From Thermoplasmata archaeon (GTDB lineage Archaea > Thermoplasmatota > Thermoplasmata > Thermoplasmatales > Thermoplasmataceae), in NCBI GenBank assembly GCA_021835025.1, contig JAKBQY010000020.1:15455-61890 (forward strand): a DNA stretch of 46,436 nucleotides, given 5' to 3'. Positions 8,847 to 32,991 of the stretch are shown here, piece after piece. How positions within the stretch are numbered: the stretch's first letter is position 1; every line of letters begins with the position of its first letter. The notes beneath the pieces were generated by a model. The model was not told where the DNA came from. It worked only from the letters and a program-made list of their open reading frames with translations, and searched no databases. A program made the translations under genes and the position numbers.

Positions 8847-9794
8847 GTGTTTAATGCTTTAACAAAATTGAGCGAGAAATCCCCTTCTGAAACAGTAGAT
8901 CAAAAATTTAATCTTAGTTTGTTAGACAGCTATTTTAACTCTTCAGACAATAGTGGGGCCTGGATAAATGAGTATCTCATAGCAGCCTTGAGAGATACGG
9001 GCAGGCTTGCAAAACCCCTCATCATGGCCATGGACTGGCATGATGAGATGTACTACGGTTCCCTGGACGCAGAAGGCATAATAGGCACAAAGAACAGCAG
9101 GGGTACAAACTATGCCTATGAATACTGTTCGGCATCGGTGGTCATTAAGGGCATCAGGTTTGTCATTGCCGTAATTCCTGTGGAACAGAGAAACATACTG
9201 GAAATGGTCTCCTCCCTGCTGGACACAATCACGGCACATGGCATACGCATAAGACTGCTTCTTTTTGATGGTGGATTCTATTCCATAGACCTGATCAGGC
9301 ATCTTGTTGCAGGAAGGATGGAATTCATCATGCATTCCCCAAAGCTGAAGAGGCAGTGCGGTGACAATGAGACTGATAGAATACACACCACGGGTTCACA
9401 CAGCAGGAGAAAGGATCAGCAGGCAACGTTCCGTCTTGTGTCAGTGTATGGAAGAAACAGGAAGGGTAGGATCCTGTACACATTTGCCACCAACACAGAC
9501 CTGCAACCGAAGGATGTGCTGAGGATGTTCAAGAAGAGATGGGGAATAGAGACAGGATATAAAATGATCAGGAAGTTCCTTGCAAAGACAACGTCAAAGA
9601 GACGAAACATCAGGCTGCTCTACTTCTATCTTGCAGTACTTCTCTACAATCTATGGGTTCTCATGAATATAATAAGCAGGGTCAGGATAATAGCCGATGT
9701 AATGAAAGCGCTGGTATCGGCATCGCTCATAAGAACGAATCCAATTGTTACGGCACTAATCCCATCAAACAGTCAGTCTGGAGGCGATTTTTGA
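8847..9794 (+). CDS. DDE transposase of the nested IS (IS4/ISH3-like)
   Basis: A DDE-type transposase of up to 315 residues. Probable catalytic elements are the Asp in AMDWHDEMY, the Asp in LLFDGGFYS, and the Glu in W-GIETGYKMIR, with the Tyr/Lys/Arg that typically follow. The stop codon lies inside the right inverted repeat. The first 15 codons fall outside the left inverted repeat, so they are IS605 left-end sequence; an element-borne start would have to be a non-ATG codon such as TTG at 8919. The N-terminus may therefore be shortened compared with the family. The exact IS family is uncertain; base composition is more GC-rich than the neighbouring genes. Confidence 0.8.
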   Translation: MFNALTKLSEKSPSETVDQKFNLSLLDSYFNSSDNSGAWINEYLIAALRDTGRLAKPLIMAMDWHDEMYYGSLDAEGIIGTKNSRGTNYAYEYCSASVVIKGIRFVIAVIPVEQRNILEMVSSLLDTITAHGIRIRLLLFDGGFYSIDLIRHLVAGRMEFIMHSPKLKRQCGDNETDRIHTTGSHSRRKDQQATFRLVSVYGRNRKGRILYTFATNTDLQPKDVLRMFKKRWGIETGYKMIRKFLAKTTSKRRNIRLLYFYLAVLLYNLWVLMNIISRVRIIADVMKALVSASLIRTNPIVTALIPSNSQSGGDF

Positions 9795-9801
9795 TCTACT
9801 G
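8893..9801 (+). mobile_element. 909-bp DDE insertion sequence nested in the IS605 left end
   Basis: Bounded by perfect 15-bp inverted repeats CAGTAGATCAAAAAT (8893-8907) and ATTTTTGATCTACTG (9787-9801). GAAA occurs on both sides (8889-8892 and 9802-9805), consistent with a 4-bp target duplication. Removing the element rejoins a normal IS605 left end. The same 15-bp repeats bound the deleted copy at 19311-19473 and end the relic at 45494. Confidence 0.88.
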
Positions 9802-9856
9802 GAAAGGGATGGGATTAAAGCGAAATCCTTATACTGCAGGAGGAAATACTACAACT

Positions 9857-10279
9857 ATGTCATATGATCTCGATAAAGGGTATCATTCCGTTTACTCTCT
9901 CTATTATCATTTCATTCAGGTGGTGAAGTACCGCAGGAAGGTCTTCACAAGTGATGAACTGGTGGATTTCCTCAAAATAAAGGTAAGGGAAATAGCGGAG
10001 ACATTCGGCGTCGAGGTGGTTTCCATAGAATGTGACAAGGATCATTTTCACATGCTGTTCAAGGGGACCCCCACACTGAGGATTACTGTGTTTGTCAACG
10101 CCGTGAAGACCATTACATCCAGGGAAATACAGAGAAAATTTCCCGAAGTGAAGAAAGTTCTGTGTAAGGGCAAGATGTGGTCTTCATCCTACTTCCTTGC
10201 AACATCTGGGCAGGTTACATTACCTGTACTTATGAAGTATGTTGAATCGCAGGAGGTCAAAAGAATTGAAGGCATATAA
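9857..10279 (+). CDS. tnpA: IS200/IS605 transposase TnpA (HUH Y1)
   Basis: Single-strand DNA transposase that cuts and joins hairpin-tagged ends using one catalytic Tyr. 140 residues, a normal size. Key parts: the N-terminal block YHSVYSLYYHFIQVVKYRRK, the HUH metal motif as His-Phe-His in DKDHFHMLF (about 62-64), and the catalytic Tyr128 in LMKYVESQ. All are present, so the protein looks intact. Start chosen at 9857, because the longer frame upstream runs back into the nested IS. It overlaps tnpB by 41 bp. The nested IS now separates it from any promoter in the first 29 bp of the element, so its expression may depend on read-through from the DDE IS. Confidence 0.92.
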   Translation: MSYDLDKGYHSVYSLYYHFIQVVKYRRKVFTSDELVDFLKIKVREIAETFGVEVVSIECDKDHFHMLFKGTPTLRITVFVNAVKTITSREIQRKFPEVKKVLCKGKMWSSSYFLATSGQVTLPVLMKYVESQEVKRIEGI

Positions 10280-11486
10280 GTTCAGGCTGTACCCATCTTC
10301 GGAACAGGAAAAAAAGCTCAACAAGCAGATAGAACTCTGCAGACAGTTGTATAACTCATTCATTATTGAAAGAAGATATGCATACAGGGAACAGAAGAAA
10401 TCTCTTACATACAATTACCAGCAGAATGAGATACCTGAATTGAAGAACACTTTTGTAGAATATAAAGGGGTTCATTCACAAGTTTTGCAGGATGTTGCAC
10501 AGAGAGTAAACCGTGCATATAAGAACTTTTTCAGGAGGAACAATGAAAAAAAGGAGGGAAAAAGACAGAAAGCAGGATTCCCAAGACTGAAGGGAAAGGG
10601 ACAGTACAAATCACTGACCTATCCACAATCAGGATTCCTGATATTGGAAAACGGGCAATTGGAACTTTCAAAGATCGGCATAATAAGGATGTTTCAACAC
10701 CGTGAAATAAATGGTGATATCAAGACACTGAACATCTCAACTGATAAAACAGGAAAATGGTACGCTTCATTCTCCGTGGAGCAGGAAAACCTTCCTGTGG
10801 TTGTCCCACTTCCATTCATTAACGAGCCAACGGAAAACACTATTGGTGCAGATGTAGGCCTCCTGCATCTTATAACATTCAGCGATGGAACTGTTATTGA
10901 TCCTCCAAAATTCCTCAGGAAAGGGGAGAAGAGTATCGGGAAGGCACAGAAGAACCTTTCACAAAAGAAGAAAGGATCAAGCAACAGGAATAAATCGAAG
11001 ATCATTCTTTCGAAACGGCATAAGAAGGTGAAGAACCAGAGGGAAGATTTTGCACACAAACTATCAAAAAATATTGTTGATAATAATGATGTTATTGTTT
11101 TCGAGAACCTGAACGTGAAAGGGATGGTGAAGAACCATCGTTTAGCGAAGAGCATAGCTGATGCTTCTTGGAATACATTAGTACAATACACCACGTACAA
11201 GGCTGAAAGTGCTGGTAAGGAAGTGGTACTGGTGGATCCAAGAAATACATCCAAAACATGTTCCTGTTGTGGACACATCAAGGATGACCTGAAATTATCA
11301 CAACGCATCTTTGTATGTAACAACTGCGGATATAAGATCGATAGGGATCTCAATGCAGCGATCAATATCCATAACAAGGGACTGGAAAAAGTAGGGAGGG
11401 GCACTCCCGAATTCACGCCTGTGGAGATTGGGGCACTACCCGAAAGGGCAACTCCGGTCAGCGAAGCAGGAAGCCCACGGTTTTAA
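10239..11486 (+). CDS. tnpB: RNA-guided nuclease TnpB
   Basis: Transposon-encoded nuclease, ancestor of Cas12, guided by an omega-RNA made from the transposon right end. 415 residues. N-terminal KAYKFRLYPSSEQ is the usual start region; a TTG at 10266 is a possible alternative start. RuvC residues are all visible: Asp in GADVGLL (about 205), Glu in VFENLNVKG (about 289), and Asp in DRDLNAAINI (about 369). The zinc ribbon is CSCCG...CNNCG. The C-terminal 30 codons (GRGTPEFTPVEIGALPE...) overlap the predicted omega-RNA. No frameshift, so it is probably active. Overlaps tnpA by 41 bp in another frame. Confidence 0.93.
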   Translation: MLNRRRSKELKAYKFRLYPSSEQEKKLNKQIELCRQLYNSFIIERRYAYREQKKSLTYNYQQNEIPELKNTFVEYKGVHSQVLQDVAQRVNRAYKNFFRRNNEKKEGKRQKAGFPRLKGKGQYKSLTYPQSGFLILENGQLELSKIGIIRMFQHREINGDIKTLNISTDKTGKWYASFSVEQENLPVVVPLPFINEPTENTIGADVGLLHLITFSDGTVIDPPKFLRKGEKSIGKAQKNLSQKKKGSSNRNKSKIILSKRHKKVKNQREDFAHKLSKNIVDNNDVIVFENLNVKGMVKNHRLAKSIADASWNTLVQYTTYKAESAGKEVVLVDPRNTSKTCSCCGHIKDDLKLSQRIFVCNNCGYKIDRDLNAAINIHNKGLEKVGRGTPEFTPVEIGALPERATPVSEAGSPRF

Positions 11487-11649: not shown

Positions 11650-11970
11650 ATGTGGCAGGAAGCATTTGGTGAATCGGAATTAAAGGATAATGAAATAAAG
11701 GGGATTTCAATTAATGGCAGGCCATTATTATTTATCAAAAAAAATGGTAATATACACTCACTTGATTTATATTGTACACATGAGCAGACCTCACTTGCTG
11801 AAGGATTTATTGAAAAGTGCAATATTGTATGTTCAAATCATTTTGCTTCTTTTGATATAAAAACTGGAAATGTAACAGCAGGGCCAGATGGGGATGATAC
11901 CCACATGAAGAATTTGAATGCCTATAAAACAAAGGTTGAAAACGGCAAAATTCTGGTGGATATCCCATGA
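11650..11970 (+). CDS. Rieske-type [2Fe-2S] ferredoxin
   Basis: A 106-residue soluble Rieske-domain protein. Cluster ligands are visible as Cys-x-His in LYCTHEQ (about residues 44-46) and Cys-x2-His in VCSNHFASFD (about 64-67), the standard pattern for a 2Cys-2His cluster. There is no membrane segment and no oxygenase catalytic domain, so it is a free electron carrier like those paired with dioxygenases or other oxidoreductases. Its stop overlaps the EtfBA start by 4 bp (ATGA), so the two are translationally coupled and very likely exchange electrons. A TATA-like TTATAATATT lies at 11623-11632. Confidence 0.88.
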   Translation: MWQEAFGESELKDNEIKGISINGRPLLFIKKNGNIHSLDLYCTHEQTSLAEGFIEKCNIVCSNHFASFDIKTGNVTAGPDGDDTHMKNLNAYKTKVENGKILVDIP

Positions 11971-13640
11971 AAGTTCTTGTATTTATAAAACAGATACCGG
12001 ATATCAGTGATGTAAAATATGATCATGAAACAAAAAGAATTATAAGAACTAATGTTAAATTGATGATAAATTCCTTTGATAAAAAAGCTGTTGAGGCTGC
12101 CATTCAATTGAAGGAAAAATATGGCATGGAAACGTATGTAGCATCAATGGGGCCACCATCTGCAGAAGACATAATAACTGATTCATTAAAAATGGGTATA
12201 GACCATGGAATTTTAATAACGGATAAACAATTTGCGGGTGCGGATACGTATATCACGGCCAGAATACTATCCCACGTTGTTAAACTAATGGGCCCAGATA
12301 TCGTGCTAACCGGAAAATACTCTCTTGATGGTGAGACCTCACAGGTTCCTCCGGAAATTTCATATTTTTCAAATTATAATTTTATATCTTCAGTATCAAA
12401 CATAGAAATAAATGGTGCAAAATTGCTTCTAGAAAGGGATGAAGATTATGGAATAAGAAAAATAATGGCGGATTTGCCGGCTGTTATTTCTGTGAGTGAA
12501 AAAATAAACAGGGCAAGACCAGTCCCGGATATTGAAATAAACAATGATATAAAAATAATTGATTCAAAGAAGATAACCATCAATGGCAGAGATTCATTGA
12601 CCGTTGTTAAAAATACAAGCATGTTGAATAGTTCAAGAAATTGTAAATTCATAGATTTCAAGGATCTTTTACAAATTCTGGATGAAAATAAGGGTATCCA
12701 TGTAATAGATAAATACAAAAATCTGGATGACTATGGGAACGATTCCATTTTCCTTGGGCTTGCAATTGATGAACCAATAACTTCTATGGAAATAGCATCA
12801 AAAATTGCAGAGATATCAAACATGAAGATTGTCATCATCGGAAATATAAATCCAGAGAAAATTGATGGCATAGCCTGCCACGAGTATATCTATCTTAAAA
12901 ATCCAGATATATTTTATTTCTCCAAATACGTTTCAGAATATATAAAAAGTAATGATGTTAAACACGTGCTTGCACCATCAAACTTAAATGGAAGAGATAT
13001 AGCATCACTGGTGGCAGCTTCTCTAAATCTAGGTTTAACTGCAGATTGCATTGATATATCACTTGTGGATAATAAAATGATTCAATACAAACCCGCATTT
13101 GGTGGCGGAATCATAGCAGAAATTATTTCCAAAACCACTCCGGATATTGCAACTGCAAGACAGGGGATGTTTAGGATTAAATTCAAAAATTACAATGCAA
13201 GGGTAATTATGGAAAAAATTGAAAACGAGAGAAACAGGACACTTGGTTATGAGGAATCAAAATTTCCGGCATTGAATACCCGAATAATCATGGGTGCAGG
13301 CAGGGGAGTCAAAAGAGAGTATATAGAAAAATTAAGGGAAATATCAGGCATGATGCATGCATCCCTGGGTGGTACAAGGAAAATTGTGGATATGCATTTC
13401 ATGCCAAGACAGGTTCAAATAGGCTTAACGGGAATCTCAATTTCTCCGGATATCTACATAAATATAGGGGCCTCTGGTGCTGATAATCATATAGTTGGGA
13501 TAAGATATGCAAAAAAAATCATATCGATAAATAATGATAGGAATGCAAATATATTTAAATACTCAGATTATGGCATAATTATGGATTCTTCGGATTTTAT
13601 TGACAGGCTTTTTGATTATGTTAAATCAAACCACTCCTGA
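11967..13640 (+). CDS. etfBA: Electron transfer flavoprotein, fused beta-alpha subunits
   Basis: 557 residues carrying both ETF subunits in one chain. The N-terminal half is the beta subunit (KVLVFIKQIPD start, GADTYITARILSHVVK, LTGKYSLDGETSQVPPEI). The C-terminal half is the alpha subunit ending in the FAD domain: GAGRGVKREY, then ASLGGTRKIVD, then the FAD-binding IGLTGISISPDIYINIGASG. Beta-alpha fusions are known from thermoacidophilic archaea. It receives electrons from acyl-CoA dehydrogenases such as the one at 27460 and would pass them to a quinone reductase or, judging by context, to the overlapping Rieske protein. No membrane segment. Confidence 0.93.
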   Translation: MKVLVFIKQIPDISDVKYDHETKRIIRTNVKLMINSFDKKAVEAAIQLKEKYGMETYVASMGPPSAEDIITDSLKMGIDHGILITDKQFAGADTYITARILSHVVKLMGPDIVLTGKYSLDGETSQVPPEISYFSNYNFISSVSNIEINGAKLLLERDEDYGIRKIMADLPAVISVSEKINRARPVPDIEINNDIKIIDSKKITINGRDSLTVVKNTSMLNSSRNCKFIDFKDLLQILDENKGIHVIDKYKNLDDYGNDSIFLGLAIDEPITSMEIASKIAEISNMKIVIIGNINPEKIDGIACHEYIYLKNPDIFYFSKYVSEYIKSNDVKHVLAPSNLNGRDIASLVAASLNLGLTADCIDISLVDNKMIQYKPAFGGGIIAEIISKTTPDIATARQGMFRIKFKNYNARVIMEKIENERNRTLGYEESKFPALNTRIIMGAGRGVKREYIEKLREISGMMHASLGGTRKIVDMHFMPRQVQIGLTGISISPDIYINIGASGADNHIVGIRYAKKIISINNDRNANIFKYSDYGIIMDSSDFIDRLFDYVKSNHS

Positions 13641-19761: not shown

Positions 19762-21720
19762 ATGGAAAACAATACTGTGAATGAACCTTTAAATTTTTCA
19801 ATAGAGTATATGGATTTTAAAAATGACCCCGCGGAGAATTTTTATAAGTTTTCAAATGGTAAATGGCTTGAAAATGCAAAAATACCCGATGACAAAACAA
19901 GATACGAGTCATTTTCAATTCTTGCGGAAAAGAATCTCTATAAATTGAAATTAATTCTGGAAGAATTAATAGATAAAAAAAATCTCAATAAAATTGAGAA
20001 AATGGTAAGCGATTTCTATAAATCAGGTATGAACACGAAAATGATAGAAAAATTGAAGTTTGAACCACTGAAAGAGATGGTAAGTATTTTAGATGATTTA
20101 AAGAGTCATGCGGATTTGCCGTTGGTATTGTCAAAACTATCATTGAATGGAATAGACACCTTATTCGGTTTCGGGTCGGAAGCGGACGAAAAAAACAGTG
20201 AAATATATGCATTTTATTTGATGCAGTCTGGTTTGTCTTTACCTGATCGTGATTATTATTTAAATGACCAATTTAAAGATATATTGAAGGAATATGAAAA
20301 ACATATAAAGATCATGCTTGATTTATATGGGTATGAAAACCCCGAAAAATTTGAGGAAAAAATTGTAAATATAGAGAAAAAAATAGCGGAATTTTCAAGG
20401 TCAAGAGTTGATTTAAGAGATCCAGAGAAAAATTACAATAAACAATTTTTAAATGAATTGTCCGAGAATTATAAAAACTTTGACTTTACCCTATTTTTAA
20501 ATAGTATAAATTTTAAAAATTCGGATTATATTATCATAGGACAGCCAGAATTTTTGACAAATGTAATTGATTATTTCAATACATTGAATATAGACGATAT
20601 AAAGAATTATTTATTCTGGAAAATATTGAATTCAACCGCATCTCTTTTGCATAAAGAAGTCAGGGATGAGGATTTCAGGTTTTATAAAAAAATTCTTCTT
20701 GGTCAGGAAAAACAGGAGGAAAGATGGAAAACCATAATTAAGGTTATTGATGCTTCCATAGGAGAGGCTATGGGAGAATTATATGTTAAAAAATATTTTC
20801 CACCGGGGGCAAAGGAAAGAATGATGGCAATGGTTTCTGATCTAGAAGATGTTTTTAAAGAAAGGTTGAAAAATGTTGAATGGATGACTCCGAAAACAAA
20901 GGAAATGGCATTGAAAAAATTCTCAAAATTCAATGAAAAAATTGGATATCCTGAAAAATTCAGAGATTATTCATCAATAAAAATAGATGAAACTGATTAT
21001 TTTGGCAATGTCCTCAAATCAGGGTTATTTGAAATGAACCGCCAGATGAATAGAATAGGAAACAATGTTGACAAAACTGAATGGGAAATGACACCGCCCA
21101 CGGTGAATGCATACTTCAATCCATTAAAAAATGAAATTGTATTTCCGGCAGGAATATTGCAACCCCCTTTCTTTGATAATGAAATGGATGACGCAGTGAA
21201 TTACGGCGGTATAGGAGGGGTAATATCACATGAAATAACACATGGTTATGATGATCAAGGAAGGCATTTTGATGAAAATGGAAATCTTGTGGACTGGTGG
21301 TCAGAAGAGGATGCAAGAAAATTTGATGAATATGCAGAGAAGGTTGTTAAATTATACGGTTCACTGGAGATTCTTCCCGAAATACATGTCAATGGAAAAT
21401 TAACACTTGGAGAGGACATAGCGGACTTAGGAGGCGTATACATTGCATACAACGCACTTGAAAATCATCTGAAGAAACATCCTGAACTGAACAAAAAAAT
21501 AGATAATTTAACACCTGAGCAGAGATTTTTTATATCCTGGTCACAGGTATGGAGAGGAAAAATAAGAGAAAATGAAATAAAAAGATTGATAACCATTGAT
21601 CCACACGCACCCTCAAAATTCAGAGGTGAAATACCAGTATGGAATCATGAGAAATTTGAGGAAACATTCAAGGAATATATAAAAAATGATAAAAAGAAAG
21701 AGAAAATAAAAATATGGTAA
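19762..21720 (+). CDS. M13-family zinc metallopeptidase (PepO/neprilysin-like)
   Basis: 652 residues, the normal size of bacterial PepO-type endopeptidases. The N-terminal peptidase_M13_N region begins DPAENFYKFSNGKW. The C-terminal domain has VNAYFNPLKNEIVFPAGILQ, the zinc motif HEITH in SHEITHGYDDQG (about 490), and the second ligand motif GEDIADLGG (about 551), followed by the substrate-binding region FFISWSQVWR. No signal peptide or membrane anchor is visible, so it is probably cytoplasmic and degrades peptides. M13 enzymes are mainly bacterial and eukaryotic, so acquisition from bacteria is possible, though the AT-rich codon use is like that of its neighbours. Confidence 0.93.
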   Translation: MENNTVNEPLNFSIEYMDFKNDPAENFYKFSNGKWLENAKIPDDKTRYESFSILAEKNLYKLKLILEELIDKKNLNKIEKMVSDFYKSGMNTKMIEKLKFEPLKEMVSILDDLKSHADLPLVLSKLSLNGIDTLFGFGSEADEKNSEIYAFYLMQSGLSLPDRDYYLNDQFKDILKEYEKHIKIMLDLYGYENPEKFEEKIVNIEKKIAEFSRSRVDLRDPEKNYNKQFLNELSENYKNFDFTLFLNSINFKNSDYIIIGQPEFLTNVIDYFNTLNIDDIKNYLFWKILNSTASLLHKEVRDEDFRFYKKILLGQEKQEERWKTIIKVIDASIGEAMGELYVKKYFPPGAKERMMAMVSDLEDVFKERLKNVEWMTPKTKEMALKKFSKFNEKIGYPEKFRDYSSIKIDETDYFGNVLKSGLFEMNRQMNRIGNNVDKTEWEMTPPTVNAYFNPLKNEIVFPAGILQPPFFDNEMDDAVNYGGIGGVISHEITHGYDDQGRHFDENGNLVDWWSEEDARKFDEYAEKVVKLYGSLEILPEIHVNGKLTLGEDIADLGGVYIAYNALENHLKKHPELNKKIDNLTPEQRFFISWSQVWRGKIRENEIKRLITIDPHAPSKFRGEIPVWNHEKFEETFKEYIKNDKKKEKIKIW

Positions 21721-24638: not shown

Positions 24639-25859
24639 TTATAATATAACTCCTGATTTTCTCAATTTATCAATTTCTTCTTCGAGATAACCTATTGAAC
24701 CAAGTAAATCATACGTATCTTCCCCAAGAGCCGGTGAACTTTTTTTTATTTTAATATAATCGCCATTAAATCGTAAAGGTACAGGTTGTATCTTTAATTT
24801 TTTTGAAAAATTTTCATTTAAGGTTTGAAAGGGATTAATGTATTCAGTATGTTCATTATAAATTACTTCCTCAACATTCTTTATTACCGCGCATGGTATT
24901 TTATTCTTTACCAAAACATTATACCAGTGCTCTTTGGTATTTTGTTTAATGATTTCCTGCATGATATTATTCAGTGTTTTCCTGTTTTTAACCCTCATAT
25001 TATTGCTGAGAAAAAATGGATCAGTGGCCAATTCAGGATGTCCTATTGAATTAGTAAGCCTGGAAAACAAATTATCATTTGATATGCCTATCATAATATA
25101 TCCGTTTTTTGTTTCAAACGCCCCGTATGGAGCAAAAGATGGGTGCTCACTTCCTATTTTTTCAGGTATTTTTTCCGTTATCTGGTATGCTGTATTATAA
25201 TAGTTCATCCAGTATATGCCAGTTTCATACAGAGATGTGGAAATATACGAACCTTCTCCAGTTCTTTCCTTTTTTAATGTAGCAAGTATTATTCCCATGG
25301 CAAGCCACATGCCTGAACCTGCGTCAAGAACCGAAATTCCCACCCTTGCAGGCAATTCATTTTTACTGCCATTTACGCTCATTATTCCCGTTTCCGCCTG
25401 TACAATTGCATCATATCCTGGTCTGTCACAATACGGCCCATTATCACCATAGGAACTTAATGAGGCATATATTATATCTTTCTTTATTCTTTTTACGCTC
25501 TCGTAATCAAAACCAAGTTTCTCCATGGTGCCTCTTCTTGAATTTTCAACTACTATCTGGCTATTTAATAACAGTTTTTTCACTATATTGGCACCCTCTG
25601 AGCTCTTGAGGTTAATTGCCATGGACTTTTTCCCACGATTTATGGCAACAAAATAAGCTGATTTATCCACAAATGCAGGTTCCATTGACCTTGAGTCATC
25701 CCCTTTCTGTAATTTTTCAATTTTTATAACATCAGCACCAAGATCCGCAAGAATAGCAGTTGCACTTGGGCCTGATATATTAGTCGTAAAATCTATAACC
25801 CTGTAACCAGTAAGTATTCCATCAAAAAGTTCATTATTGTTTAAAGTTTTTTGAGACAT
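24639..25859 (-). CDS. Class III CoA-transferase (CaiB/BaiF family)
   Basis: Moves CoA between carboxylic acids. 406 residues, the usual length. Visible: the N-terminal YRVIDFTTNISGPSATAILADLGADVIKIE block, the GYDAIVQAETGIMS segment, and the following Asp of VGISVLDAGSGMW, with the catalytic Asp expected in the YDAIVQAE/D region as in formyl-CoA transferase. Substrate is unknown. Relatives act on citramalate, mesaconate, methylsuccinate, glutarate and itaconate, which would fit the neighbouring acyl-CoA dehydrogenase, hydratase and lyase. Monocistronic and divergent from the MFS gene at 26033. Confidence 0.9.
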   Translation of the reverse strand: MSQKTLNNNELFDGILTGYRVIDFTTNISGPSATAILADLGADVIKIEKLQKGDDSRSMEPAFVDKSAYFVAINRGKKSMAINLKSSEGANIVKKLLLNSQIVVENSRRGTMEKLGFDYESVKRIKKDIIYASLSSYGDNGPYCDRPGYDAIVQAETGIMSVNGSKNELPARVGISVLDAGSGMWLAMGIILATLKKERTGEGSYISTSLYETGIYWMNYYNTAYQITEKIPEKIGSEHPSFAPYGAFETKNGYIMIGISNDNLFSRLTNSIGHPELATDPFFLSNNMRVKNRKTLNNIMQEIIKQNTKEHWYNVLVKNKIPCAVIKNVEEVIYNEHTEYINPFQTLNENFSKKLKIQPVPLRFNGDYIKIKKSSPALGEDTYDLLGSIGYLEEEIDKLRKSGVIL

Positions 25860-26000
25860 ACTTTATAAGTATTTTATCCTATATTTTAATTGCTACTCCC
25901 AGTTATCCAATATATAAAAAACCATTTATTTTATATAATTAATTTTACATTGTTAGTAGTCTGTTGCAAAAACTAAAATATCAAATTGGGTAATGATAGA

Positions 26001-26012
26001 TATAATTAAATA
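26001..26012 (+). promoter_or_regulatory. TATA element of the second MFS gene
   Basis: TATAATTAAATA lies 21-32 bp before the ATG at 26033, giving a leaderless transcript. Confidence 0.5.
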
Positions 26013-26032
26013 CTACAAAGTGTTATATTTTC

Positions 26033-27418
26033 ATGAACAGTGATAATACTGGCTCAAATTTTGAAAAAAAATCTATAATTGCAAGAATGCAACGAATAGA
26101 TGAATGGCCACTCCCAAAGTCTTTTTTGGCTATAATAGCGCTTGGGTATTTTTTTACCTTCTACGATGTTACCGATATAGGCTTTGCAATGCCCGCTATT
26201 GCCCCACAATTCAACTTAGTACATTCCGAGATTTTATTTCTGGCCTTATCAATAGGGCTCATAGGATATGTATTCGGTTCATTTATTATAGGGCATTTAT
26301 CGGACAGATATGGAAGGTATCCTATGCTAATAGTTACTATGGTATTAATGGCTCTAGGGTCATTTGGGGATGCTGCATCGGTGAACCTCAGTATGCTTGT
26401 TATATTCAGATTCATCACCGGTCTTGGATTGGGTGCGGATCTAAATCTTATTCCGGCTTATATAGGAGAATTCGCTCCTGCGGATAGAAGAGGCCACTTA
26501 GCACAGATAACATTCTTCTTGGGCATCCTTGGACAGGCCGTGACCCCATTTGTTGCCCTAGCACTTGTGCCACCTTTTTACTATGGGTGGAGAGTGCTGT
26601 TTTTCATAGGAGGGTTGATAGCTGTAATAGCGGTTATATTGAGAGCCGAACTTCCAAGATCACCAAGATGGCTCGTTTCGCATGGAAGGGTTAAGGAAGC
26701 CGACAGTGTGGTTTCCCATTTTGAAAAATATTTAAAAGATAAAGGCCTATCTTTACGCGAAATAAAGGATGATGATATAAATAAAATAAGCTTGGAAGAT
26801 GAAACCAGCAGGGTTCCCTTAAAATACCTATGGCAAAAACCATACAGATTTAGAATGCTCATATTCGGTCTATGGTGGGGATTATGGTACATCGGGAATT
26901 ATGCATTCCTTGGGGATGCAGCAACTATCCTTTCCTCATCTGGCGTTTCCGTAGCAAGTTCTATCCTTTACATAGCTATAGGTGCGATAGGATATCCAGT
27001 TGGAGCAATATCTTCATGGTTAATATCGGACAAAATAGAAAGAAAAATTATTATATTTGCAGGTTCCATAATGTGGCTTATTGGTATGCTTATATTTGGG
27101 AGCAAATACAATGATATAGCCTTGATGGTAGGAAGTTTCATTGCCTCTTATGCTCTTGCCTTCCTTATTGGAATTGCCTATCTGTATACTTCGGAAAGCT
27201 ATCCGACAAGAGCGAGAACATCTGGATTTGCAATGGGAGATGGTCTTGGCCATATAGGCGGAGCTATTGGGGCCCTTTTATTACCTGTATGGGTAACTGA
27301 AATTGGATTCTTCGGGGGATTTGCTTTCATTGGTTTTACCACACTGATAGCAGGAGTAATACTGATAGTAGGAGGAGATCTTGCAACTGGAAAACAACTG
27401 GAAACTATTTCAGCATAA
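26033..27418 (+). CDS. MFS transporter (sugar/organic-acid symporter type)
   Basis: 461 residues with about 12 hydrophobic helices. Loop 2-3 motif GHLSDRYGRYP and helix-4/5 RFITGLGLGADLNLIPAYIGEFAPADRRG are the classic sugar-transporter-branch signatures (R-x-G-x-G-x-G...P-x-Y-x-x-E-x-x-P). The mid-loop has ELPRSPRWLVSHGR, and helix 10-11 has YTSESYPTRARTSG. It precedes the acyl-CoA dehydrogenase by 41 bp on the same strand, and sits between two CoA-transferase genes, so an organic acid is a plausible cargo; this is inference. Confidence 0.87.
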   Translation: MNSDNTGSNFEKKSIIARMQRIDEWPLPKSFLAIIALGYFFTFYDVTDIGFAMPAIAPQFNLVHSEILFLALSIGLIGYVFGSFIIGHLSDRYGRYPMLIVTMVLMALGSFGDAASVNLSMLVIFRFITGLGLGADLNLIPAYIGEFAPADRRGHLAQITFFLGILGQAVTPFVALALVPPFYYGWRVLFFIGGLIAVIAVILRAELPRSPRWLVSHGRVKEADSVVSHFEKYLKDKGLSLREIKDDDINKISLEDETSRVPLKYLWQKPYRFRMLIFGLWWGLWYIGNYAFLGDAATILSSSGVSVASSILYIAIGAIGYPVGAISSWLISDKIERKIIIFAGSIMWLIGMLIFGSKYNDIALMVGSFIASYALAFLIGIAYLYTSESYPTRARTSGFAMGDGLGHIGGAIGALLLPVWVTEIGFFGGFAFIGFTTLIAGVILIVGGDLATGKQLETISA

Positions 27419-27459
27419 AAAATTAACAATATTTATATATTTTTATTATATATTTTTTT

Positions 27460-28638
27460 ATGACTTTAGAATATCCAAGGAGTATTGATGAAAATGATGA
27501 ACTTTTAATCAAAATGGTATTGGAAATTACAGGGAAATTTGGGGAAGACTATTGGAAAAAACTTGAACAAGAACATTTATATCCAGGTGATTTTGTCAGG
27601 GAATTCACAAAACAAGGTTTATTTAAAATTCCAATACCTGAAAAATATGGGGGGGCAGGTCTCGGCATAAGGGAAACTTCACTGATTCTTGAGGAAATAA
27701 ATGCATCCGGAGGAAATTCACAGCCTTTCCATGGCCAGTATTATATGACATGGTTGCTGTCAAAATTTGGAAATGAAAAACAAAAAAATGCTTTATTTCC
27801 AGACCTTGGAAATGGCAAAATAAGAATGCAGAGTATGGGTCTTACTGAGCCTGATGCCGGATCAAACACTACTATGATCAAAACATTTGCCACAAAATCC
27901 AACGATGAATATATATTGAACGGCCAAAAAATATTCACATCCAGAATTGAAGAATCAGATTGGATTCTGATTGTAGCCAGAACAAAAAAATACGGAGACG
28001 TTTCAAAGAAAACGGATGGAATCACTCTTTTTCTATTAGGTCCTGAGGAAAAGGAACAGATTGAGTTTACAAGAATTAAAACAATGTTCAACAGCCAGAC
28101 ATACCAAGTATTTTTAAGGGATGTTGCAGTTCCTGCGGAAAATATTATTGGCAATGAAAATGATGGATTTTCCTATTTAATGCATGTCCTCAATCCCGAA
28201 CGAATTTTGATAGCATCTGAAAGCATAGGAGATATGAGATGGTTTGTTGAGAAATCATCTGAATATGCTTCAAGCAGAATGGTATTTAACAGGCCAATAG
28301 GCCAGAACCAGGGAATTCAGTTCCCAATATCGGATATATATGCAAAAATGCTCTCAGTTGCATCATTGAGGTGGGATGCGGCCACAATGTATGATAATAA
28401 CGGGGATATAAAAAAAATCGGGGAACTGGCAAATTCAGCCAAATATCTGGCTTCAGAATATGCATGGCAGGCTGCCAATGTTGCCATGGATACATTTGGA
28501 GGGTATGGAACGGCAGTCGATACAGGAATAGAGAGAAAATTCAGGGAATCAAGGCTATACAAGGTTGCACCAATAGCAAATAATCTTGTATTATCATATA
28601 TAGGCCACAATGTTCTGAACATGCCAAAATCCTATTGA
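27460..28638 (+). CDS. Acyl-CoA dehydrogenase
   Basis: FAD enzyme that makes a trans-2 double bond in an acyl-CoA and gives electrons to ETF (EtfBA at 11967). 392 residues. Motifs: GLTEPDAGSNTTMIKT (FAD/substrate loop), NGQKIFTS, and the C-terminal DTFGGYGTAVDTGIERKFRE. The usual catalytic Glu near the C-terminus (YEGT in medium-chain enzymes) seems to be replaced (KVAPIANN). A Glu is present in VLNPERI at the position used by isovaleryl-CoA dehydrogenase, which hints at a branched substrate. Its 3' end overlaps the convergent CoA-transferase gene by 7 bp. Confidence 0.92.
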   Translation: MTLEYPRSIDENDELLIKMVLEITGKFGEDYWKKLEQEHLYPGDFVREFTKQGLFKIPIPEKYGGAGLGIRETSLILEEINASGGNSQPFHGQYYMTWLLSKFGNEKQKNALFPDLGNGKIRMQSMGLTEPDAGSNTTMIKTFATKSNDEYILNGQKIFTSRIEESDWILIVARTKKYGDVSKKTDGITLFLLGPEEKEQIEFTRIKTMFNSQTYQVFLRDVAVPAENIIGNENDGFSYLMHVLNPERILIASESIGDMRWFVEKSSEYASSRMVFNRPIGQNQGIQFPISDIYAKMLSVASLRWDAATMYDNNGDIKKIGELANSAKYLASEYAWQAANVAMDTFGGYGTAVDTGIERKFRESRLYKVAPIANNLVLSYIGHNVLNMPKSY

Positions 28639-30044
28639 TTCTCAAACCATTCGGCTGCCAGATGAATATCATACGGTATGTGTTTATTTTCACATCCGGT
28701 AAAATATTTCATCAGGGAATCCCGGTATACCGGACTGGCACAGTTATTTATGATTTCACTGGCTCTCTCCCGTGGATCCTTCCATCTGAGATCTGCTATG
28801 CCATTTTCAGTAACTATAAAGTCAACCATCTGTTTTGGTATATCCACATTTGAAAGTAGGGGCACTATCTTTGATGTCTTTGAATCTCTTGAAAGCGAAG
28901 TCAGGGCAACAATAACATACTTTCCCGAAGAGGCAAAATCCCCTGAGCCACCAACGCCGTTGTATATATTTCCGTTTATATGGGAAACATTAACAGATCC
29001 ATATATGTCTATTTCAAGTGCCTGCTGGATAACTATTGCATTCAATCTTCCTATAATTTCCTGGCTGTTTGTTATGTAATTTGGTCTCAAAACCAGTGAG
29101 TTAACGTAATCAGTAAATGAATTTAGAAATTTTGCAGTATATTTTTCATCACCTGGAAGTGTGTATAGAGCCGAGGCACTTATTTTATCTATTTTATCCC
29201 CTATCTTTTCGATCCATTTAGATGGAGCGATTTCGCACCATATCTTTAAATTATTATAGGGAGATACATCGATAAGTGATGTTGCAATGGACCCTGCACC
29301 TACCTGCAATGGTTCCACATTTTTAAACGCAATAAATTCTGTAAGAATTTTCCAGATTTTATCTGAAATTATATCAATATCCTTCGGAGGCCTTCCATAG
29401 GAACCGCCGGATTCTTCCTTTTTATCTGTAAAAATTATTCCCTTTATTTTGTTCTTTTTTATTTTTAAATACCTGTTACCTGGTCTGTCATAAACACTTT
29501 TTATATCCGCCGTTTTTCTACTGTTCAAGGGTATGATGTCATGAAGCCCATATAGATCAGGTTTGTTTGTATTTATTTCTATTAAAATATTTTTTGCTGC
29601 ATATTCAAGTGCTGGAACAGCATCAAGAGATAGTGACGGTACTATACCATTTTCACCTATGGCTGTAGCCTCAAAAATTAAAAAGTCAATTTTATTTTTC
29701 ATTTCATATCCCATGAGCCTTGAATATCTTGAAACAAAATAATCCATCATCATAGTTTTGCCACTGTTTACAGGCAATCTGCTTGTATTTCCACTTAAAT
29801 AATAGAACCTTCTTTTTATTTCAAGCCTGGACATTTTATTTTCAAACGTATTTGTTGTTCCACCACCAGTATATAAAATAATATTTTTACTCTTGGCATT
29901 CATTGCAAGCGCTGAGGGAATCTCCTTTGGAATGGATTGTCCACCCATACCACCAACGGCTATTGATCCCGCATTCATAAGCATTTTGGCTGCCTTGTCG
30001 GTGTCTATGATTTTTTCCTTCATGGCCCCAGTTATTCTTTCCAT
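28632..30044 (-). CDS. Class I CoA-transferase (acetyl-CoA hydrolase / 4-hydroxybutyrate CoA-transferase family)
   Basis: 470 residues. The N-terminal domain has AKMLMNAGSIAVGGMGGQSIPKEIP-type CoA-transferase start; the C-terminal domain has the signature ALEIDIYGSVNVSH...GVGGSGDFASSGK and VTENGIADLRWKDPRERA. A Glu suited to form the glutamyl-CoA intermediate is present in IWCEIAPS. Last gene of a three-gene operon behind a CitE-like lyase (18-bp gap) and a MaoC hydratase. The same three families (RipA, RipC, RipB) form the bacterial itaconate pathway, where this family is itaconate CoA-transferase. Propionate, acetate or citramalate CoA-transferase are alternatives. Confidence 0.88.
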   Translation of the reverse strand: MERITGAMKEKIIDTDKAAKMLMNAGSIAVGGMGGQSIPKEIPSALAMNAKSKNIILYTGGGTTNTFENKMSRLEIKRRFYYLSGNTSRLPVNSGKTMMMDYFVSRYSRLMGYEMKNKIDFLIFEATAIGENGIVPSLSLDAVPALEYAAKNILIEINTNKPDLYGLHDIIPLNSRKTADIKSVYDRPGNRYLKIKKNKIKGIIFTDKKEESGGSYGRPPKDIDIISDKIWKILTEFIAFKNVEPLQVGAGSIATSLIDVSPYNNLKIWCEIAPSKWIEKIGDKIDKISASALYTLPGDEKYTAKFLNSFTDYVNSLVLRPNYITNSQEIIGRLNAIVIQQALEIDIYGSVNVSHINGNIYNGVGGSGDFASSGKYVIVALTSLSRDSKTSKIVPLLSNVDIPKQMVDFIVTENGIADLRWKDPRERASEIINNCASPVYRDSLMKYFTGCENKHIPYDIHLAAEWFENQ

Positions 30045-30062
30045 TAATCCACTTCTCGCTGT

Positions 30063-30890
30063 TTACGGTTTTTCACCACTATTCTTAAGTATGCTTTCTG
30101 CCATGCGTATATGGACCGAGTCAACAAGCTGCCCATCAACGTTTATTGCACCCCTTCCGCTTGAGGATGATGCCCTGTATTCTTTTATTATTTTTTTCGC
30201 CCATTCAATTTCCTCCCTGGATGGTGAAAAAATCTGGTTGGCTATTGCAACTTGCGATGGATGTATGACCTGCTTTCCCTCATATCCAAGCGACCTTGAT
30301 TCCTTGCACTCATCAGCAAATCCATCCAAATTGTTGAGATCAAAGTAGACCTTATCCATGGCTTTGATGCCGTGGGCTCTTGCGGATATTATAATTTTGG
30401 TTTTCAGATATAAGTTTGATGAATACCCCTCAATATTTCCACCCGCCGAAAATGACAGATCGCCTGCAGCCCATGAAACCATTTCAACACCCTCCTGGGA
30501 TATTACATCATCCAACTTATTCATGCCCTCTGCTGTCTCAATAAGGGCGATTAATGGTATGCCAAGATGCCGGTAAATATGGCTTAATCCCAGTTCCGAT
30601 TTTGGCACCACAAGATAATCCGGTTTTTTCTCAGCACTATTAATTGCTATAATATCATGGTAGAAATATCCAGTATCCATATCATTTATCCTTATTGCTA
30701 TTTTTTTGTTTATTTTATTAGTTTGGATAAATTCCAGAATAAATTCACGTGCCCCATTCTTTTCAGTTTCAGGAACAGCGTCCTCAAGGTCAAATATAAT
30801 CATGTCTGTATCCAAGCTCTGGCTTTTCCCCACCATTTTTTTATTATTGGAAGGTACATATAGCTGAGATCTTATCATTACTTTCACCAT
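30063..30890 (-). CDS. CitE-like (HpcH/HpaI family) acyl-CoA lyase
   Basis: 275 residues of the malyl/citramalyl-CoA lyase group. Motifs: RSQLYVPSNN start, FDLEDAVPETEK, RIND, the PKSE strand, metal ligands Glu in LIETAEGM and Asp in WAAGDLSF, then GYEGKQVIHPSQ and the C-terminal GRGAINVDGQLVD lid. These are features of free-standing CitE-like enzymes that split 3-methylmalyl-CoA or citramalyl-CoA rather than the ACP-bound citrate lyase subunit; no citrate lyase alpha or gamma gene is nearby. It overlaps the MaoC gene by 7 bp and precedes the CoA-transferase. In the itaconate model it yields acetyl-CoA and pyruvate. Confidence 0.9.
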   Translation of the reverse strand: MVKVMIRSQLYVPSNNKKMVGKSQSLDTDMIIFDLEDAVPETEKNGAREFILEFIQTNKINKKIAIRINDMDTGYFYHDIIAINSAEKKPDYLVVPKSELGLSHIYRHLGIPLIALIETAEGMNKLDDVISQEGVEMVSWAAGDLSFSAGGNIEGYSSNLYLKTKIIISARAHGIKAMDKVYFDLNNLDGFADECKESRSLGYEGKQVIHPSQVAIANQIFSPSREEIEWAKKIIKEYRASSSSGRGAINVDGQLVDSVHIRMAESILKNSGEKP

Positions 30891-31351
30891 TTTTCATTTT
30901 TCATTGGAATCATAAAGGTCCTTATCATTTCCATAACTTCCTGGGATTTCTGATTTATTCCTGTAGTTTTTATTTTAACTATCCCAAATCCCTTATGTGA
31001 TTCTGATTCTCTTTTATCGACAATCTCAACTCTTGAATATAAAGTATCTCCTGAAAATACGGGAACCCTGAATTTTACATTTTCTATACCAAGCATGAAT
31101 CCATTTTTGCTGGTATATTCAACGGATAAACCAACAACTACTGCCATGGTGAACATGCCATTCACAACAAGTCTTCCATTGAAAGGATTGCCCGAATAAT
31201 TTTTCTGTGTGTAATCGCTGTTAAAATGAATTTGATTGCTATTGTTTGTTAAAAGGGTAAACCATATATTATCGTTGTCCGTTATGGTTCTACCTATCTC
31301 ACTTAAATACACATCTCCAATTTTTATATCCTCATAGAATCTATTATCCAT
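30884..31351 (-). CDS. MaoC-type hot-dog enoyl-CoA hydratase
   Basis: 155 residues, a single hot-dog fold. The N-terminus FYEDIKIGDVY is typical of MaoC proteins. The hydratase active-site segment is NSNQIHFNSDY, with the His, followed by RLVVNGMFTMAVVVGLS. Later strands are ENVKFRVPVFSGDTLYSRVEI. First gene of the operon with the CitE-like lyase and CoA-transferase. Family members hydrate mesaconyl-CoA or itaconyl-CoA in five-carbon dicarboxylate pathways, and also R-3-hydroxyacyl-CoAs in general, so the substrate is inferred from the operon. Confidence 0.85.
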   Translation of the reverse strand: MDNRFYEDIKIGDVYLSEIGRTITDNDNIWFTLLTNNSNQIHFNSDYTQKNYSGNPFNGRLVVNGMFTMAVVVGLSVEYTSKNGFMLGIENVKFRVPVFSGDTLYSRVEIVDKRESESHKGFGIVKIKTTGINQKSQEVMEMIRTFMIPMKNEKW

Positions 31352-31677: not shown

Positions 31678-32991
31678 TTATTTTTTCTCGCTCTTAGTTG
31701 AAAGAATTTTTTCGGGTAATTTATTGCCCTTGGTTTCGGGAATTAAAAATATCAGGGGGATTACTATTATAAAGCCAATTATTGTGTATGCAACAGCATG
31801 TCCAAATCCAACCAGTAATGCTAAATATCCAATTATGAATATTAAAGCAGCGGCAAAATATCTGGCAAATGTTGTGATGGCAGCAAACCCCGAACTTCTA
31901 AATTCTGTTGGGTACAATTCTGGGCTCCACAATGTAAATACCGCAAAGTCAGCACCACCTATACCTAAAATGGGTAAAACTAAAAATAGATAATACAGGT
32001 TATCAAGATAAAATATGATATCATATATTAAAAATACACTTACAGTCATTAGCAGCAAAAAAAAGATCAATGTAAATCTTCTGCCTATCTTTTCCGCTAA
32101 AAATGGCATCAGAAGACACCCTATTATGGTGAATACTGCCGTTTCAGAACCACCAGCAGCAACAAAATCAACAATTGGTAATTTAAATACAAATGTTTTA
32201 ATTATATCTTCTATAACAGTAGGAACATAAACTGTTCCACTATAAAGACCAAGTATTACTGCAGACATTACAATAGATGCCACTATTGTTGTTTTTGAGT
32301 ATCCTCTTCTGAATATGGAGAAAAGAGACTCTTTTGCAGTTAACTTATCCCCAGCTATTTGTTTAACCTTTTCCCATTTTTCTGGTTCCTTTGTTTTATA
32401 TCTAATGTACACTATAAAGAAAACTGGCAACCCCCCTAAAATCAACATGCCTCTAAATCCTATAAAGGGCTCAAGCAATAATTCTGCCACTGCAGCCAGT
32501 AAGAATCCAAAATAAAATCCTGTATGGAATAAACCTGCACCCATAACACGCCTATCTTCAGGGAACACCTCAGATACCGATGTCCCACCAACAAACCACT
32601 CAGCACCTATACCAAGGCCTGTGATAAATCTAAAAACCATAAATTCATATGCATTCGTTGATAATCCACTTAAAATCGAACCTGCAGCAAATAGTATAAT
32701 GCTTAAGGTTAGCATCCTTATTCTGCCATATTTGTCACCAAGGGGACCGAAAATGAATGACGTCCCCCAACCAACCAGGAATATTGCAAAAAAGGCAAAA
32801 AGGAAAAATGATGTTAATTTCAGGCTTATACCTGTTGCAGGTAAAAGATAATCAGTTGCCGCAAGGTCTATAAAAGCATAAACAAATGTGGTAAAACCAT
32901 CCAATACCCAACCACCCCATGCTGCATAAAATACTGACCAATTAATATCTTTCCATGAAGTTTTATTAGCAATATTTTTATAATTATCCAT
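31678..32991 (-). CDS. MFS transporter (sugar/organic-acid symporter type)
   Basis: 437 residues with about 12 hydrophobic helices. Motifs: GPLGDKYGRIR loop, RFITGLGIGAEWFVGGTSVSEVFPEDRR, a second-half loop AEKIGRRFT, and SPELYPTEFRSSG near helix 10. The helix-4 E-W-x-x-G pattern is typical of the metabolite:H+ symporter branch. It is on the same strand as, and upstream of, the MaoC-lyase-CoA-transferase operon, separated by 326 bp, so it may supply that pathway with substrate. Own promoter expected in the spacer after 32991. Confidence 0.86.
   Translation of the reverse strand: MDNYKNIANKTSWKDINWSVFYAAWGGWVLDGFTTFVYAFIDLAATDYLLPATGISLKLTSFFLFAFFAIFLVGWGTSFIFGPLGDKYGRIRMLTLSIILFAAGSILSGLSTNAYEFMVFRFITGLGIGAEWFVGGTSVSEVFPEDRRVMGAGLFHTGFYFGFLLAAVAELLLEPFIGFRGMLILGGLPVFFIVYIRYKTKEPEKWEKVKQIAGDKLTAKESLFSIFRRGYSKTTIVASIVMSAVILGLYSGTVYVPTVIEDIIKTFVFKLPIVDFVAAGGSETAVFTIIGCLLMPFLAEKIGRRFTLIFFLLLMTVSVFLIYDIIFYLDNLYYLFLVLPILGIGGADFAVFTLWSPELYPTEFRSSGFAAITTFARYFAAALIFIIGYLALLVGFGHAVAYTIIGFIIVIPLIFLIPETKGNKLPEKILSTKSEKK

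Follow-up and report, generated by a model that had tools for sequence, protein, structure and literature searches.

The window analysed here, a stretch of 46,436 nucleotides from a Thermoplasmata archaeon of the Thermoplasmataceae (contig JAKBQY010000020.1 of assembly GCA_021835025.1), carries at positions 24639-31351 a gene cluster that probably converts branched C5 dicarboxylic acids to acetyl-CoA and pyruvate, with (R)-methylsuccinate and/or itaconate or mesaconate as its main substrates. The archaeon is an acidophile related to Acidiplasma. Gene content, conservation and protein relationships form the basis of this reading, and the enzyme steps are all predicted from them. The genes concerned are as follows.

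24639-25859, minus strand: class III (CaiB/BaiF) CoA-transferase, 406 amino acids (aa), divergent from the MFS1 gene.
26033-27418, plus strand: MFS1, a carrier of the sugar/aromatic-acid:H+ symporter type, 461 aa.
27460-28638, plus strand: acyl-CoA dehydrogenase (ACD), 392 aa, placed by its clade with Pseudomonas aeruginosa Mcd and by active-site motifs.
28632-30044, minus strand: class I CoA-transferase of the Cat1/YgfH type, 470 aa (Pfam AcetylCoA_hyd_C).
30063-30890, minus strand: CitE-like β-hydroxyacyl-CoA lyase, 275 aa (Pfam HpcH_HpaI).
30884-31351, minus strand: MaoC-fold (R)-specific enoyl-CoA hydratase, RipB/Ich- and Mch-like, 155 aa (Pfam MaoC_dehydratas).
31678-32991, minus strand: MFS2, another MFS carrier of 437 aa, whose gene lies 326 bp upstream of the MaoC gene; a doubtful member of the cluster.

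A preliminary description of this DNA had recognized the last three enzyme genes as a tight operon, and the coordinates, the Pfam assignments and the gene order in three relatives all agree with it: the MaoC and CitE genes overlap by 7 bp, and a gap of 18 bp separates the CitE and CoA-transferase genes. The limits that it gave to the cluster were too narrow, as the ACD gene and the class III CoA-transferase gene also lie in the neighbourhood. The ACD gene is convergent with the class I CoA-transferase gene, their 3' ends overlapping by 7 bp, and the MFS1 gene lies 41 bp upstream of it. Both of the MFS carriers described as flanking the operon are present but they are not equivalent: the ACD gene separates MFS1 from the operon, and no orthologue of MFS2 was found near the operon in the three relatives, so that MFS2 was rejected as a member.

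The genome to which the window belongs is 1.68 Mb in size and falls in the same genus as Acidiplasma aeolicum VT (contig NZ_LKBG01000100.1). The order MaoC-CitE-Cat1 is kept in A. aeolicum VT (55-72% identity) and in two further relatives, G042 (84-89%) and G065 (57-79%), which is far beyond chance. A. aeolicum and G065 both retain the ACD and MFS1 genes, and MFS1 adjoins the ACD gene in the loci of the relatives (L026 of G042, L027 and L028). The conserved cluster includes the ACD and MFS1 in addition to the three-gene operon. About 60 bases before the MaoC gene, compared by eye only, are common to the window and L026 and are not found in the two other relatives.

The ACD is the most specific clue to the function of the cluster, and its relationships add methylsuccinate as a likely substrate. 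It is 44% identical (368 bits) to Mcd of P. aeruginosa, encoded in that species' itaconate/methylsuccinate cluster, which in the locus compared (L069) sits on a megaplasmid; its best score against solved structures is 156 bits, and with the other dehydrogenases of the window's genome it gives 104-156 bits. A tree of 40 rows places the window ACD, its archaeal kin and the enzymes of P. aeruginosa and Cupriavidus metallidurans in one 26-row clade with support of 100/100. Within this clade an N/D-x-E-R segment (NPER in the window, with E247) puts the glutamate on an earlier helix, which we take to be the position of the glutamate of isovaleryl-CoA dehydrogenase, and A/V-P-[IV] (VAPI in the window) takes the place of the catalytic E-G of most other families; the two segments do not occur together in any of the 14 outgroup rows. 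Among 60 relatives the ACD was found only in genomes with this cluster or a related one. The identities of isovaleryl-, butyryl- and glutaryl-CoA dehydrogenase were rejected by the scores and the tree. The enzymes from P. aeruginosa (PA0879) and C. necator have been shown to be (RS)-methylsuccinyl-C4-CoA dehydrogenases (PMC12290011), and the same activity, methylsuccinyl-C4-CoA dehydrogenase, is proposed for the window ACD from its clade and active-site motifs. Elsewhere in the window, at 11967-13640, a single open reading frame of 557 aa holds the domains of both subunits of the electron-transfer flavoprotein (ETF) in fused form, a possible electron acceptor for the ACD.

For the hydratase, the best NCBIfam model is RipB_Ich (NF038241), with 130.5 bits against a cutoff of 340, a value which the RipB of Paraburkholderia caribensis (L059) passes at 356. 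The protein is 48% identical to a Thermus MaoC protein from a fumarase-ACD-CaiB-MaoC cluster, in which the fumarase is of class I and the CoA-transferase of class III. Where the fatty-acid-type hydratases have an aspartate, the window protein has an asparagine (N37), as do RipB, mesaconyl-CoA hydratase and the Thermus protein; His42 is retained. As the Asp-His pair is absent, a fatty-acid (R)-hydratase (PhaJ/MaoC) was rejected, and the grouping with such enzymes that the preliminary description had named as telling against its own proposal was not found for the hydratase. The P. aeruginosa Ich, of 275 aa, matches no NCBIfam family, and the window enzyme is of the 155-aa RipB-like kind. A mesaconyl-/itaconyl-CoA hydratase is proposed on these grounds.

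The lyase scores 159 bits with RipC_Ccl (NF038242; cutoff 375), which is no argument against a function of this kind because the Ccl of P. aeruginosa itself (structures 8khl and 9nzb) scores only 158; the RipC-like protein of L059, at 290, is likewise below the cutoff. In the lyase tree the window protein belongs to an 11-row archaeal clade (support 100/99) that adjoins two lyases of bacterial clusters with MmgE and dehydrogenase genes (96/87); human CLYBL joins next (90/56), and RipC, Ccl and Rv2498c stand apart. Residues R67, E118, D144 and D257 are invariant. The AlphaFold2 model (pLDDT 93.1) is matched almost equally by malyl-CoA lyase 5ugr, CLYBL 5vxc and Ccl 8khl, and as far as sequence and fold go, the substrate could be either citramalyl-CoA or β-methylmalyl-CoA. 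The proposed function is that of a citramalyl-CoA lyase giving acetyl-CoA and pyruvate. Citrate lyase was rejected, as the score with the CitE model is far below its cutoff and no genes for other citrate lyase subunits are present in the cluster.

The class I CoA-transferase scores 305 bits with TIGR03458 (Cat1/YgfH type; cutoff 659) and is 32% identical to 2g39, 30% identical to AarC (4eu9) and 23% identical to the RipA-like protein of L059; it was rejected as a RipA on the last value and on its match to the Cat1 models instead. E271 aligns with E294 of AarC. A small tree of 15 rows unites the canonical succinyl-CoA:acetate transferases in one clade (100/99) and brings the two archaeal groups together with moderate support (81/81). 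A DIP[RK]Q segment and an insert of the LPGD type are common to the window enzyme and its homologues in the Thermoplasmata family f27. The enzyme is a member of the acetyl-CoA hydrolase/transferase family, a placement that the preliminary description had regarded as adverse, but in a subfamily separate from the succinyl-CoA:acetate transferases. It is the proposed activator of the C5 acid. The class III CoA-transferase is a possible second candidate: its best NCBIfam model is succinate-glutarate CoA-transferase (268 bits; P. aeruginosa Ict scores 237 with the same model), and it gave no clear subfamily. Its gene is kept in G065 (L028) at 62% identity and was not found in G042; since Cat1 persists even there, it is the better candidate. 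In an alternative division of labour, the class III enzyme would activate the acid and Cat1 would recharge succinate from acetyl-CoA.

In the proposed pathway, MFS1 would be the likely carrier, and the Cat1-type enzyme, or the nearby class III enzyme, would transfer CoA to the acid. The ACD would then oxidize methylsuccinyl-C4-CoA to mesaconyl-C4-CoA, with the electrons probably passing to ETF, and itaconyl-CoA would enter at the following step, in which the MaoC enzyme is predicted to form (S)-citramalyl-CoA by hydration. The CitE-like lyase would finally split (S)-citramalyl-CoA into acetyl-CoA and pyruvate. The best-supported reading is a route through C5-dicarboxyl-CoA esters with a citramalyl-CoA-type lyase as its last enzyme, as set out in the preliminary description; that account overlooked the ACD and with it methylsuccinate as a likely substrate.

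The same genes are linked in other genomes. In the distantly related family f27 (G170, G190 and G233; loci L090, L091 and L093) the same four genes are rearranged, with MaoC-ACD-CitE as one operon and Cat1 convergent beside it. Among 400 Thermoplasmata genomes, MaoC occurs in nine, Cat1 in nine and both in seven (hypergeometric P of 4e-12, with relatedness ignored). A plasmid of haloarchaeon DL31 (L064, 5694-14000) carries ACD-MaoC-Cat1-MFS with an MmgE gene nearby and no CitE gene nearby. The majority of the bacterial loci retrieved by matches to the window proteins are C5-type clusters, such as ich-mcd-mmgE-ict-ccl in P. aeruginosa, fumarase-ACD-CaiB-MaoC in Thermus, CitE-CaiB-MaoC-ACD in Salinicoccus, and clusters with MmgE in Deinococcus and Rhodococcus. 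The scattered occurrence of the genes suggests horizontal spread.

Several observations weigh against the degradation of C5 acids through citramalyl-CoA. No protein of the cluster reaches its equivalog cutoff, and the function of PF03328 lyases has been described as not readable from bioinformatics alone (PMC6689899). A class I fumarase (mesaconase) is absent from the window's genome, and its one MmgE, which scores 60 bits with P. aeruginosa MmgE where the C. metallidurans protein scores 614, lies beside a PrpB-like gene. The top match of the lyase in both sequence and fold is the malyl-CoA/β-methylmalyl-CoA lyase 5ugr, and a Marsarchaeota homologue of the lyase (42% identity; L031, 4938-8813) seems to share an operon with a MeaB-like GTPase and subunits of methylmalonyl-CoA mutase. 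These last two observations, together with the methylmalonyl-CoA mutase and the PrpD-PrpB pair for propionyl-CoA in the window's genome, would suit a pathway on the β-methylmalyl-CoA side, which we consider unlikely: the ACD groups with the C4-specific enzymes (368 bits) and not with 6es9 (79 bits), presumably the C1 enzyme of the ethylmalonyl pathway, and the hydratase is of the short RipB type, with only 51 bits to the model of the two-domain Mch (NF041625; cutoff 560).

In G042, the closest relative, the ACD gene is decayed (L026, 10303-11260), with frameshifts and the last ~72 codons gone, while MaoC-CitE-Cat1 is intact, and methylsuccinate oxidation would for this reason be dispensable there; entry below methylsuccinate, as itaconate, mesaconate or citramalate, can by the same observation be suggested to suffice. 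The state of G042, where CaiB was not found either, would also fit a detoxification of itaconate or mesaconate by the three genes alone, with the ACD and MFS1 forming a separate unit for another acid that is there by chance, and clusters of the Yersinia pestis type indeed have three genes only (PMC12290011). Such an arrangement is less likely still, since the ACD is co-operonic with MaoC and CitE in f27, lies beside MaoC and Cat1 in haloarchaeon DL31 and is of the C5-cluster type by its tree. Least probable is a leucine-type catabolism, in which the substrates would be isovaleryl-CoA for the ACD, methylglutaconyl-CoA for MaoC and (R)-3-hydroxy-3-methylglutaryl-CoA (HMG-CoA) for the lyase. The glutamate position of the ACD and the precedent of Mycobacterium tuberculosis Rv2498c, a bifunctional citramalyl-CoA/(R)-HMG-CoA lyase (PMC6689899), can be cited for it. 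Against it, the cluster lacks a methylcrotonyl-CoA carboxylase, the ACD matches isovaleryl-CoA dehydrogenase 1ivh at 125 bits and P. aeruginosa Mcd at 368, and the lyase lies outside the Rv2498c clade.

The MmgE/PrpD gene of the genome and its PrpB-like neighbour (G000:C57; L095, 4049-6179) likely belong to the methylcitrate cycle, and this MmgE was rejected as a methylsuccinate isomerase on account of that neighbour. The window further contains an IS200/IS605-type element (9653-11486), in which a Y1 transposase precedes a TnpB-like protein that has a Cas12f-like TNB domain, and a peptidase of the M13 family (neprilysin-like) at 19762-21720, here in an archaeon.

In bacteria, the breakdown of itaconate and methylsuccinate takes two forms, which are described as convergently evolved. 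The pathway of C5-diacid breakdown has so far been shown only in bacteria, and the window most likely holds an archaeal case with a different type of activating enzyme; the open-access literature, to which the search extended and which leaves subscription papers aside, gave no report of the pathway in Thermoplasmata, and the paper on the transcriptome of Acidiplasma YE-1 has nothing on the cluster genes. More tentatively, and with slightly less than even confidence, the cluster may represent a third, independently assembled pathway for itaconate and methylsuccinate. It would be native to Thermoplasmata of acidic habitats and soil, and a diverged enzyme of the Cat1 type, neither RipA-type nor class III, would activate the C5 acid, with succinyl-CoA and perhaps also acetyl-CoA as CoA donor. 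If true, such an archaeal pathway, with its different CoA-transferase, would have been put together independently once more, and more kinds of organism than now known would encounter the antimicrobial acid itaconate. Detoxification is a plausible selective reason, because these diacids would be largely uncharged at the pH at which Acidiplasma lives and may act as poisons besides being nutrients.

Compared with known systems, the cluster resembles ich-mcd-mmgE-ict-ccl of P. aeruginosa and C. necator in an ACD of the same clade and motifs, a CitE-type lyase and a class III CoA-transferase nearby, whereas its hydratase is RipB-type and not the longer Ich, a Cat1-type CoA-transferase is in the operon, the MmgE isomerase is lacking and an MFS carrier replaces the TRAP carrier. 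With Y. pestis RipABC, represented here by P. caribensis L059 and PDB entry 3qll, it shares the three-gene set of class I CoA-transferase, RipB-like hydratase and CitE-like lyase; however, the CoA-transferase is of another subfamily at 23% identity, the lyase lies outside the RipC clade and the ACD and MFS are extra. The earlier statement that the three families are those of the Rip/Ich-Ccl-Ict pathway is inexact: the Cat1/YgfH-type CoA-transferase is neither RipA-type nor class III like Ict, the hydratase is RipB/Mch-like with a score well below the RipB cutoff, and the lyase scores as Ccl does. The mesaconate part of the haloarchaeal methylaspartate cycle (Mct, Mch and malyl-CoA lyase) likewise combines mesaconyl-CoA hydration with β-hydroxyacyl-CoA cleavage in an archaeon, but with a two-domain Mch of ~350 aa, a lyase of ~340 aa, C1 esters and no dehydrogenase. 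The succinyl-CoA:acetate CoA-transferases AarC and 2g39 share the fold family and the catalytic glutamate (E271 = E294) with the window Cat1, which differs from them in its 30-32% identity, a short LPGDE-containing insert, a DIPxQ segment that replaces DHxxx, and its separate subfamily. Because the RipA, Ich and MmgE features and the RipB cutoff fail, while the Mcd feature is present by sequence, the cluster belongs to neither the Yersinia Rip type nor the Pseudomonas Ict/Ich/Ccl type; it would work in the manner of both and is best regarded as an archaeal variant of the known pathway.

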